A stretch of 44,334 bases of DNA from Lachnospiraceae bacterium (lineage in GTDB: Bacteria; Bacillota; Clostridia; Lachnospirales; Lachnospiraceae), in the NCBI GenBank assembly GCA_017513625.1, contig JAFXEW010000094.1, positions 1-44,334 of the forward strand, written 5' to 3'. The notes below the pieces were generated by a model that was not told where the DNA came from, did no database searches, and saw only the letters and a program-made list of their open reading frames with translations. The translations under genes were made by a program, and so were the position numbers. This document shows positions 7,026 to 15,911 of the stretch, piece after piece; within the stretch, counting starts at the first letter, position 1; each line of letters starts with the position of its first letter.

Positions 7026-7059
7026 CAGGTCCATACATGGTACAACATGTATGGACCTG
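7026..7059. other. Perfect 14-bp hairpin after the DUF1540 gene
   Basis: caggtccatacatg (7026-7039) pairs perfectly with catgtatggacctg (7046-7059) over a 6-base loop. Only tattgta follows, so there is no proper U-tract. It may be a weak terminator or an mRNA 3'-end stabiliser between DUF1540 and the HD-GYP gene. Confidence 0.6.
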
Positions 7060-7127
7060 TATTGTAGAAAGCAGAATCCGGGGCCTGTTGATGCAATGGA
7101 GTGCTGGCAGATGGGAAGGAGCTGAAC

Positions 7128-8333
7128 GTGTTGAAGAAGTACAGAGGAATTATTTTTTTTCATGTAGTTTTTTTGGGAATTTCCCTTGTAATGCTGTTTA
7201 GTTGTCTGGGATATGTTAATTACGTAAAGACACATGGTTATACATATAAGATGGGGGATTTTTCCACCAAATATGACATAACGCTGTCCCGTGCCAAAGA
7301 ATGGAGTGAGGTTTCCCACGGTTTTGTACACGGTATGCAGTATGACGGTGTAATTTATAACAACACGGATGAGGTATTGTCTGACTGGAAGGTAGAGATT
7401 AAGTTTATTAAGAATTGTAAGGTGGACAGTTACTGGAACGGAACAGTTACTTACGAAGATGATGTGATGACACTGGAGTGTCTGGATTATAATAAAAATG
7501 TGGATCCCCACAACTATCAACCATTTGGTTTTGTATTGCATGCAAATAAGCTGGATAATGTGGAGGAATGCTCCGTTACCTTCTATAAGCCGGTGTATAT
7601 TACAGACTTCTGGCAGTTCTGGTGTTCGGTTATTGGATTATTCATTCTGGTAATTGTAGACATTACCCTGTTGGTTGTTTACATCAGAAACAGGGAAATG
7701 AGAGCCAGACAGAAGATTGCCCAGGATATCATTACCCAGAGCTTCACTACTTTTGCAAATATCATTGATGCAAAGGACCCGTACACCAGAGGTCATTCCG
7801 TAAGAGTGGCTATCTATTCCCAGGAAATTGCCCGTAAGATGGGACTTACCGAGCAGGAACAGGAGCATATTTTCATGGTAGGAAGTGTGCACGATATCGG
7901 AAAAGTGGGTATATCCAATTCTATACTGCAAAAGAAAGGAAAGCTTACCGGGGATGAGCGTGAGGAGATGAAGCACCATGTAGATATCGGTGCAGATATG
8001 TTGCGTGATTTTACAGCCGTAAAAGATATCCAAAGCGGAGCCATGTACCATCATGAGTGGTATGACGGCAGCGGATATACCAGAGGAATAAAGGGAGAGG
8101 ATATTCCTTTGTTTGCCCGGATTATCGGAGTGGCAGATTCCTTTGACGCCATGAGCAGCGACAGATGTTACAGACCCCGTCTGGATATGGATGTGATTAT
8201 AAATGAGTTACATCGTTGCAGCGGTACGCAGTTTGATCCGGAAGTGGTGAAAGCGGTGTTGGAATTGATTGAGGAAGGCAAGATTCCGGTTCAGTTACCC
8301 AATGATCCGGTATTTACCGCGGATTATACATAA
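7128..8333 (+). CDS. Membrane HD-GYP phosphodiesterase with CBM2-like outside domain
   Basis: A 401-residue sensor protein. TM1 is about 7-28, an outside domain spans about 30-158, TM2 is about 160-186, and a cytoplasmic HD-GYP domain covers about 195-385. HD-GYP proteins hydrolyse cyclic di-GMP. Ligand residues are visible: H223, H255-D256 (HDIGK), H283/H284, H308-H309-E310 and D337. The GYP motif reads DGSGYT. The outside domain has the order of a family 2 carbohydrate-binding module: NNT, LSDWKVEIKF, YWNG, YN (121-122), FGF (133-135), with Trp87 and Trp103. I chose GTG 7128 because aaggag lies six bases upstream; TTG 7131 or GTG 7101 remain possible. Confidence 0.82.
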   Translation: MLKKYRGIIFFHVVFLGISLVMLFSCLGYVNYVKTHGYTYKMGDFSTKYDITLSRAKEWSEVSHGFVHGMQYDGVIYNNTDEVLSDWKVEIKFIKNCKVDSYWNGTVTYEDDVMTLECLDYNKNVDPHNYQPFGFVLHANKLDNVEECSVTFYKPVYITDFWQFWCSVIGLFILVIVDITLLVVYIRNREMRARQKIAQDIITQSFTTFANIIDAKDPYTRGHSVRVAIYSQEIARKMGLTEQEQEHIFMVGSVHDIGKVGISNSILQKKGKLTGDEREEMKHHVDIGADMLRDFTAVKDIQSGAMYHHEWYDGSGYTRGIKGEDIPLFARIIGVADSFDAMSSDRCYRPRLDMDVIINELHRCSGTQFDPEVVKAVLELIEEGKIPVQLPNDPVFTADYT

Positions 8334-8348: not shown

Positions 8349-8377
8349 TTGACACATAAAGAACTGTGTGATAGTAT
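8349..8377 (+). promoter_or_regulatory. Promoter of infC-rpmI-rplT
   Basis: TTGACA (8349-8354), 17-base spacer, TAGTAT (8372-8377). It lies just after the HD-GYP stop and immediately before the structured leader. Confidence 0.75.
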
Positions 8378-8383
8378 ATGTTT

Positions 8384-8540
8384 TGTGTGTAAGCACGTTA
8401 ATAATTGTAGCAAGCAGAGTATCCACTCTCACCTTACAACAATCAGGTTCGTAAGTGTTCAGATTTTCTACATCGGGATATTGTTCCGATGCGTGTTGAT
8501 TGTGATTTCAGTGGATAGTTATGCTATCCACTTTTTTTAT
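8384..8540 (+). promoter_or_regulatory. L20-type ribosomal protein leader of infC operon
   Basis: About 155 untranslated bases before infC. An early segment tatccact (8420-8427) is identical to the 3' arm of the terminator (8525-8532) and can pair with agtggata (8510-8517), giving an antiterminator. A hairpin catcgg/ccgatg lies at 8471-8491. In Firmicutes, ribosomal protein L20 binds such a leader to favour termination. The position, the alternating pairings and the operon match that system; L20 binding itself is inferred. Confidence 0.8.
8511..8538 (+). terminator. Leader terminator upstream of infC
   Basis: gtggatag (8511-8518) pairs with ctatccac (8524-8531) over a 5-base loop, followed by seven T. 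It competes with pairing of 8510-8517 to 8420-8427. Confidence 0.85.
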
Positions 8541-8553
8541 GGAGGGTAAAACC

Positions 8554-9060
8554 ATTAGCGATTATATCATTAACGAACAGATTAAAGACAAAGAAGTGCG
8601 TGTAATCGGTGAAAACGGTGAACAGCTTGGAGTTATGCCTACTAAGGAGGCTTTAAAACTTGCAGAAGAAGCAGAACTGGATTTAGTAAAGGTTGCACCT
8701 ACCGCAAAGCCTCCCGTATGCAGAATTGTTGATTACGGTAAGTTCAAGTATGAACAGCTCAGAAAAGAGAAAGAGGCAAAGAAAAAGCAGAAGGTTATTG
8801 AAGTAAAGGAGATTCGTCTTTCTCCCAACATTGATACCAATGACTTGAACACCAAGATTAATGCAGCCAGAAAGTTTTTAACTAAGGGAGATAAGGTAAA
8901 GATTACCTTACGTTTCCGTGGCCGTGAGATGGCACACATGAATAACAGTAAGCACATTCTGGATGATTTTGCTGAGAGTCTTAAGGATGTAGCTGTAGTT
9001 GAAAAAGCCCCTAAGGTTGAGGGCAGAAGTATGACAATGTTTTTAACTGAGAAGCGATAA
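8554..9060 (+). CDS. infC: Translation initiation factor IF-3
   Basis: A 168-residue IF-3, which binds the 30S subunit and checks the start codon. N-domain ([25 protein letters not shown]), lysine-rich linker (about 75-90) and C-domain are complete. The best start is ATT at 8554: GGAGGG (8541-8546) lies seven bases before it, and the protein then begins like other Gram-positive IF-3 proteins. ATG codons at 8521 and 8539 lie in the terminator or overlap the ribosome binding site. An AUU start lets IF-3 repress its own translation, as known in E. coli. Confidence 0.93.
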
Positions 9061-14462: not shown

Positions 14463-14537
14463 CGGGGTGTGGCTCAGTTTGGTTAGAGCGCCGTCTTAGG
14501 GAGGCGGAGGTCGCGAGTTCGAATCCCGCCACTCCGA
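14463..14537 (+). tRNA. tRNA-Pro, anticodon AGG
   Basis: A full cloverleaf folds by hand: acceptor cggggtg/cactccg, D-stem gctc/gagc, anticodon stem ccgtc/ggcgg with loop ttaggga (anticodon AGG at 14498-14500), variable loop aggtc, T-stem gcgag/cccgc with loop ttcgaat. No CCA is encoded. The G after the anticodon and the CGGGGUG acceptor are typical of bacterial proline tRNAs. Two oddities are A at wobble position 34 and an A-C mismatch in the T-stem (14516 with 14526). Confidence 0.92.
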
Positions 14538-14540
14538 CGA

Positions 14541-14632: not shown

Positions 14633-14714
14633 TAAGAAAAATGTACAATTGATGCTGATTATGTACAAATGACGAACCGGATATTACGTGGGTCGATGGA
14701 TAGCAGGTGATAGC

Positions 14715-15911
14715 ATGAGTAAAATAACAGAACAGGAAGTACTGGAAGCATTAAAAAACAAAGAAATGCAAGTATATTATCAGCCGCAGTATGACACCTT
14801 GAGCAAGAAGCTGAAAGGTGCGGAAGCATTGGTACGCTGGTTTAGACCTGATGGTACTTTAGTAATGCCCGGTGCATTTATTCCGCTTTTGGAAGAAACC
14901 TCGGCAATATTGCAACTGGACTGGTACATGACAGAGCGCGTCTGTGAATTTTTAAATAGGCAGAAAGCGGAGGGTTTGACACCTGTTCCTATTTCTATTA
15001 ATTATTCCAGAAGGCATGTACAGGAAGAGGACTTTGTGGACAAACTGAGTCAGATTGCGGACAATTATGGGGTGCCCCGTAAGTTGCTTATTGTAGAAAT
15101 TACAGAATCCATGCTTGAAGAGAAGACTGTCAGTGTGATAGATTTGATTCGAAAAGTTCGTGCGGCAGGTTTTTGTGTTGCTATTGATGATTTCGGAAGC
15201 GGTCTGTCCTCACTTAGTTTTGTAAAAGATATTTCCGTGGATATACTTAAGATTGACCGTTCCCTTTTCAGCGGTAACTGTGAAGATGAAAAGGAACGTA
15301 TCGTATTGGAAAGTATTTTCATGTTTGCACACCGTTTGAAGTGGACTACGGTTGCGGAAGGTGTTGAAACAGCGGAGCAGCTTAATTTCTTAAAGACCTG
15401 TGATTGTAAGATGATACAGGGTTATTTGTTCGCAAAACCCATGCCGGAAGCAGATTTTGTAAATATATGCAGGGAATGTGATGCAGAAGAATCAGGTGAT
15501 TATTTTGAGCAGTTGCAGGATACTTACGGTGCATTGAATCTCTTGTTGGATGCGATAATGATGTGTTATCCCCTGATCATTATGGTGAATCTGAGCAGGG
15601 ACAGCTATTATATGATGGCCTATGATAATTTTACCACCCATACCTGTGCTTCCAGCGGCGTATTCCATGAATTGATTGAAAATGCCGTGCCCAGCATGCA
15701 TCCCGATGACAGGGAGTTGTTTGCTCGTGTTTTCAGTGCCGAGAACCAGCTGCGTGCAATAGCGGACGGACAGAAGTACGTACGTGCCATTACCAGACAG
15801 CTGGGAGATGATGGATTGTACCGCAAGGTGGAAACCACGAATTTCTTTGTAAAGAGTCCCTATTCGGAGGACGCATTGGCTATTACATTAAGCCACAGTC
15901 TGGAGGATTAG
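14715..15911 (+). CDS. EAL-domain cyclic-di-GMP phosphodiesterase with C-terminal PAS-like domain
   Basis: A 398-residue cytosolic protein. The EAL domain (about 10-250) hydrolyses cyclic di-GMP to pGpG. Catalytic motifs look complete: the EAL triplet at 37-39 (AEALVRW), SINYSR, EITES, DDFGSG, LKIDRS, EGVE and QGYLFAKP. The last about 130 residues resemble the PAS-like domain seen in Lachnospiraceae GGDEF/EAL proteins, with the pattern SMHPDDRELF. No membrane segment or GGDEF domain is present. I chose ATG 14715, with caggtga just upstream, over the ATG at 14688. It is a single-gene unit between terminators. Confidence 0.88.
   Translation: MSKITEQEVLEALKNKEMQVYYQPQYDTLSKKLKGAEALVRWFRPDGTLVMPGAFIPLLEETSAILQLDWYMTERVCEFLNRQKAEGLTPVPISINYSRRHVQEEDFVDKLSQIADNYGVPRKLLIVEITESMLEEKTVSVIDLIRKVRAAGFCVAIDDFGSGLSSLSFVKDISVDILKIDRSLFSGNCEDEKERIVLESIFMFAHRLKWTTVAEGVETAEQLNFLKTCDCKMIQGYLFAKPMPEADFVNICRECDAEESGDYFEQLQDTYGALNLLLDAIMMCYPLIIMVNLSRDSYYMMAYDNFTTHTCASSGVFHELIENAVPSMHPDDRELFARVFSAENQLRAIADGQKYVRAITRQLGDDGLYRKVETTNFFVKSPYSEDALAITLSHSLED

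Follow-up and report, generated by a model that had tools for sequence, protein, structure and literature searches.

The gene analysed here, from a Lachnospiraceae bacterium, raises the question of what could be perceived by a membrane protein with a putative cellulose-binding module outside the cell and an HD-GYP domain inside it, and on which process such a signal could act. The window, that is, the whole stretch of DNA analysed, comprises 44,334 nucleotides. In an earlier note on this DNA, the protein was proposed to read plant polysaccharide at the cell surface and to lower cyclic di-GMP (c-di-GMP), linking contact with fibre to motility or adhesion. The open reading frame is real, and a Shine-Dalgarno sequence (AAGGAG, 7116-7121) can be read directly ahead of its GTG start. 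The encoded parts follow each other in the order first transmembrane helix (TM1), outside domain of about 140 residues, second transmembrane helix (TM2) and HD-GYP domain (Table 1). A net positive charge was found on both TM flanks expected in the cytoplasm, which would place the CBM2 segment outside the cell and the HD-GYP domain within it. Judged by its sequence, the receptor is composed of a predicted CBM2-type module between two TM helices and, after TM2, an HD-GYP domain in which the metal-ligand residues are present. In the interval that separates the receptor gene from the DUF1540 gene, window positions 7026-7059 form an inverted repeat of 14 bp without mismatches and with a loop of 6 bases (CAGGTCCATACATG); there is no clear T run.

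Table 1. Features of the receptor gene and of the protein that it encodes, in window coordinates.
Feature	Position	Strand	Description
CBM2-HD-GYP transmembrane receptor	7128..8333	+	401 aa, GTG start at 7128, stop at 8333
TM1	7149..7205	+	residues ~8-26, hydropathy maximum at residue 8
CBM2-like outside domain	7278..7577	+	residues ~51-150; Pfam match 68-150, W59 added by family alignment
W59	7302..7304	+	aligned with the W17-equivalent of EngD CBM2 (profile alignment); W in 50/53 members
W103 (YWNG)	7434..7436	+	aligned with CBM2a W54; W in 53/54 members
Y121 (DYN)	7488..7490	+	aligned with CBM2a W72; aromatic in 34/54 members
TM2	7629..7685	+	residues ~168-186, hydropathy maximum at residue 168
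HD-GYP domain	7752..8246	+	residues 209-373

A Pfam search with the whole protein revealed a match to CBM_2 (PF00553) over residues 68-150 with 37.6 bits and an E-value of 2.9e-9, and the ectodomain alone matched the same model at 3.3e-10. The PF00553 search had been proposed as a check in the earlier note and was passed, the cut-off being 24 bits; together with the HD_5 match in the cytoplasmic part (8.6e-35), this bears out the resemblance to a CBM2 on an HD-GYP protein. When the ectodomain was compared with PDB sequences by phmmer, the top matches were the CBM2-type chains 6f7e (6.4e-4) and 2rtt (7.2e-4), and a profile of 20 members, this receptor included, matched the CBM2 of EngD (3ndy) at 2.3e-9, as well as other CBM2 chains. 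A CBM_2 match at E <=0.01 was obtained in 36 of the 39 aligned ectodomains; the ectodomains of relatives are 15-37% identical to that of this receptor. NCBIfam gave no match with the isolated ectodomain, and with the complete protein none of its models scored above cut-off. A chance resemblance is ruled out by the Pfam and PDB E-values, and the assignment of the outside domain to CBM2 is supported at the level of sequence similarity.

The binding face of CBM2a is formed by three positions that we take to be W17, W54 and W72, and all three are aromatic in this receptor by sequence position (W59 by the EngD alignment, W103 and Y121 by that of 1exg), with the residue numbers of both comparisons counted from the profile alignment. 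Conservation was followed in a profile-aligned set of 66 rows, from which 7 short rows were dropped; a limit of 90% identity left 54 of the other 59, this receptor among them. Two of the three Trp positions are kept across these 54 divergent non-redundant members, the exceptions at W59 including L019, with Trp one position later, and L094, which is ended by the contig edge; the third aromatic is absent in 20 of the 54. The earlier note had listed Trp residues of exposed type in the YWNG and SDW motifs. The former (W103) holds, but the SDW residue (W87, Trp in 53/54 members) aligns with W38 of 1exg, presumably a core residue of CBM2, and should therefore be a core residue as well, while W59 had been overlooked. 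Absence of an aromatic binding face had been named as evidence against the CBM2 reading; by alignment, the three aromatic positions are present, and W59, W103 and Y121 may be exposed together on one face.

The receptor is not an oddity of one genome, a possibility ruled out by its presence in 20 of 299 genomes of the same family and at 39 of the best 80 of 580 confirmed loci. The 20 carriers (frames of 400-470 aa, E <=3.3e-27) are those found first with the receptor sequence and used for the profile, and the profile search added none at that threshold. The 39 loci, in which the ectodomain aligned over at least 100 residues, come from a scan of named genomes; 29 of them are labelled as Lachnospiraceae or genera placed there (L073, Merdinaster, being counted here), five as Treponema/Spirochaetes (L077, L079, L115, L117, L128), two as Oscillospiraceae (L072, L092) and one each as Selenomonadaceae (L090), Fusibacter (L071) and Clostridia (L070). 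Likewise, the 54 non-redundant members are mostly from Lachnospiraceae, with a few labelled Treponema, Oscillospiraceae or Fusibacter. Contamination of metagenome-assembled genomes is possible, above all for L090, because its ectodomain groups with those of Lachnospiraceae. Recurrence in dozens of genomes, many of them labelled as rumen or hindgut, suggests a general device.

No conserved gene neighbourhood was seen when 11 window proteins (AraC, GH10, MATE, thrS, DUF1540, infC, rplT, HAD, peptidase, aldolase and AI2E) were compared with the 80 loci at E 1e-10, a weak test in that several loci are short; AraC and MATE matches of 29-34% identity occurred at L098 and L107, and the other nine proteins had no match. 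Within the window, the GH10 protein (1664-2905) has no signal peptide evident by eye and adjoins the AraC-like regulator and the MATE-like transporter. In the region upstream of infC (8349-8560), TTGACA and TAGTAT at a spacing of 17 nt, with TG, resemble a promoter. A hairpin at 8510-8532 looks like a terminator; a stretch near 8419-8428 recurs in its 3' half, an arrangement resembling an attenuator. The likely infC start is an ATT at 8554 after GGAGGG, by eye, and Rfam gave no match at gathering threshold in 8349-8560.

Among known proteins, the membrane- or lipid-anchored GH5-type cellulases of Lachnospiraceae share with the receptor, by profile score, the subgroup of their CBM2, including a lengthened loop behind the Trp equivalent to W17 and the W/W/Y set of aromatics. 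In 11 such modules, the equivalents of W59, W87 and W103 are Trp in 10/10, 11/11 and 11/11, and the equivalent of position 121 is Tyr in 11/11; Pfam confirmed GH5 in L056, the other ten being assigned by reading of the sequences. Bit scores against the sensor profile were 62-93 for the GH5-type modules (10 of the 11 having been chosen because this profile found them), 38 for EngD and 19-27 for the secreted CBM2s of the own genome. In a tree of 53 receptor CBM2s, 11 GH5-type modules and 5 classical ones, receptors and GH5 modules were intermixed with low support (0.36). The GH5-type CBM2s are joined to the enzyme through linkers, whereas that of the receptor lies between TM helices. Two of the loci labelled Treponema/Spirochaetes, L077 and L079, come from separate assemblies and are collinear over 9.4 kb with 80.7% identity; each has, some 3.4 kb upstream of its CBM2-HD-GYP gene, a GH5-like gene with a lipoprotein-like start (371-1414 and 388-1440, respectively). 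The own genome also has a pair of frames that look secreted (L001 and L003, on contigs C4 and C131; 345 and 394 aa). Each contains two CBM2 matches and an acidic tail, and no catalytic domain could be made out by eye.

Lower-scoring matches of the profile include membrane proteins whose ectodomain is related but carries a long insert behind WNG; this ectodomain is called here type II, as opposed to type I of the receptor. The two types were aligned by hhalign with a probability of 98.9 (E 2.7e-17), and the two Trp positions are invariant in 13 type II rows; CBM2 chains of the PDB were matched weakly (0.049 and 0.088), and a Pfam scan of five type II receptors (L035, L154, L155, L158, L159) gave no CBM_2 call. 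Strong type II matches (E <=2.6e-33) were found in 21 of 299 genomes, 17 in frames of 441-493 aa (15 also in the HD-GYP list) and 4 in frames of 631-993 aa. Other architectures were sampled from 14 stretches chosen among the rows of the profile search; among them are the four frames of 631-993 aa (L154, L155, L158, L159), each with a two-TM type II ectodomain. Two of these are hybrid histidine kinases, in which HisKA, HATPase_c and a receiver scored above cut-off, and the other two have kinase matches below cut-off only. Further receptor classes beyond HD-GYP and histidine kinase may exist. Somewhat short of an even case can be made for a CBM2-derived glycan-binding scaffold having been recruited from membrane-anchored cellulases into a two-type family of receptors in bacteria of fibre-fed guts, type I on HD-GYP proteins and type II on HD-GYP proteins and histidine kinases. 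If true, one fold would both help to cut plant fibre and report it to c-di-GMP and two-component signalling.

Concerning the ligand, the preferred proposal, to which we give about as much credit as doubt, is that the receptor reads soluble beta-1,4-glycan fragments near the membrane and acts on swimming through its HD-GYP domain, c-di-GMP and a PilZ protein of YcgR type. The CBM2 module, of the same subgroup as those of the membrane-anchored GH5 cellulases, would bind cello- or xylo-oligosaccharides and short chains that are released from plant fibre and reach the membrane. The best-known targets of CBM2 modules are insoluble polymers, which counts against this proposal.

The CBM2 fold could instead have been kept for another ligand, such as the own cell wall, an exopolysaccharide or a partner lipoprotein holding a glycan, as the loss of the third aromatic in part of the family and the type II ectodomains with their long insert on HD-GYP proteins and histidine kinases would allow. 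No other CBM2 was found in 10 of the 20 carriers (three of them, G199, G206 and G267, by assumption), which points the same way. The two strongly conserved Trp positions shared with cellulase modules speak against it, as does the enrichment of carriers among genomes with other CBM2 genes. Another CBM2 gene was found in 10/20 carriers and 56/279 non-carriers (p 0.004), and, within flagellated genomes, in 9/19 and 36/136 (p 0.10, not significant); both tests ignore shared ancestry, and in eight carriers a single CBM2 match was counted as the receptor itself, which was read from the matches for five and assumed for the three genomes named above. On balance, a ligand of this other kind seems unlikely, though it keeps some claim.

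Contact with insoluble fibre, as envisaged in the earlier note, is the part of that reading that does not find support, and it is its weakest step, although the biological reading as such is plausible. The stretch between the TM helices measures 132-188 residues (median 142; 57 of 59 rows, two starting too near a contig end), of which the CBM2 fills about 100, which places the module close to the membrane with no long spacer. The Gram-positive wall is tens of nanometres thick, and 132-188 residues are short for reaching through it; Treponema is a genus with two membranes, and in the relatives labelled as such the domain would face the periplasm. A surface module in contact with cellulose or xylan, with a lowering of c-di-GMP as the response, would agree with the CBM2 identity, with the binding-face positions and with the anchored GH5-type cellulases that carry the same type of module, but it appears distinctly unlikely in view of these two points. 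Given the short stretch without spacer and the carriers in contigs labelled Treponema, soluble fragments of plant glycans are preferred to contact with fibre as the proposed signal.

The cytoplasmic part matched HD_5 (residues 209-373) and also HD in Pfam. An alignment of eight members shows no variation at eight residues (H223, H255, D256, K259, H284, H308, H309 and D337), and all of them except K259 are taken here as metal ligands of HD-GYP. The GYP tripeptide itself is not present, as the receptor has GYT (GSGYTRG); five of the other seven aligned members have GYP, one GYN and one GYS, so the third letter is variable within the family. Homology extends over most of the length of the HD-GYP domains of PmGH (4mcw, 4.1e-34) and V-cGAP3 (5z7c, 2.4e-45), with which the His and Asp residues align; both proteins, unlike the receptor, presumably lack an outside domain of CBM type.

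The own genome (82% complete) has 10 GGDEF matches, flhA and an EAL protein, the latter encoded in the window (14688-15911), where a tRNA-Pro gene with anticodon AGG lies just ahead (14463-14538). A PilZNR-PilZ gene (YcgR type) has an flhG-like gene on one side and a cheB-like gene on the other; flhA, cheA and cheW belong to the same cluster, the names other than PilZ and flhA being given by reading of the sequences. The PilZ protein contains, by eye, R-xxx-R and D-x-S-xx-G, which we take to be the motifs of PilZ. A protein of YcgR type slows flagella at high c-di-GMP. A very unlikely reading is that 3'3'-cGAMP is the substrate of the HD-GYP domain, or that the domain binds its ligand without catalysis, given that the eight invariant residues, the 10 GGDEF matches and the PilZ motifs stand against the signs in its favour, namely a 3'3'-cGAMP phosphodiesterase (5z7c) as best PDB match, GYT in place of GYP, and a Tyr that the receptor shares with 5z7c where PmGH has a Glu, presumably its third-metal ligand.

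Under the proposal that soluble glycan fragments are the signal, binding of the ligand would move TM2 and change the activity of the HD-GYP domain, and the change in c-di-GMP would be passed on to swimming by the PilZ protein of YcgR type that is encoded in the flagellar operon. Two directions are allowed, since the ligand could either start hydrolysis, so that the cell goes on swimming, or shut it down, so that the cell stops and stays. The gene flhA was found in 19 of 20 carriers, as compared to 136 of 279 non-carriers (Fisher p 2.9e-5) or 134 of the 223 non-carriers that match the receptor protein at all (p 0.0012), shared ancestry being ignored in both tests; the remaining carrier (G120) has no flhA match. 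This co-occurrence and the YcgR-type PilZ gene in the flagellar operon make the link to motility of the earlier note more plausible. The receptor provides one concrete and testable gene for the choice between swimming and staying that fibre-digesting gut bacteria face on plant particles.

No description of a CBM2-HD-GYP protein was found among the open PMC papers listed in literature searches, and the Pfam and InterPro tables may well list the combination. In the main text of a 2022 review on c-di-GMP sensing, the terms 'cellulose-binding' and 'CBM' are absent, and the predicted carbohydrate-sensing 7TMR-DISMED2 and sugar inputs are mentioned (PMC8846402). In the receptor, known parts are combined in a new way, and its distribution is wide enough to make it relevant.

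The ectodomains of the RsgI anti-sigma factors of Clostridium thermocellum are CBM3, CBM42, PA14 or GH10, and two studies cited in PMC6056542 (Kahel-Raifer 2010, Yaniv 2014) are, by their titles, in line with polysaccharide sensing by RsgI. These factors resemble the receptor in outline, as membrane proteins that report plant polysaccharide inward, and sensing of this type is outlined in the abstract of PMC12203970. The receptor itself is ruled out as an anti-sigma protein of RsgI type, because Pfam finds HD_5 and HD in its cytoplasmic part and no RsgI domain. The two systems differ at both ends: RsgI has a CBM3 and gives a sigma factor as output after proteolysis, whereas the receptor has a CBM2 and an HD-GYP domain as its output domain.
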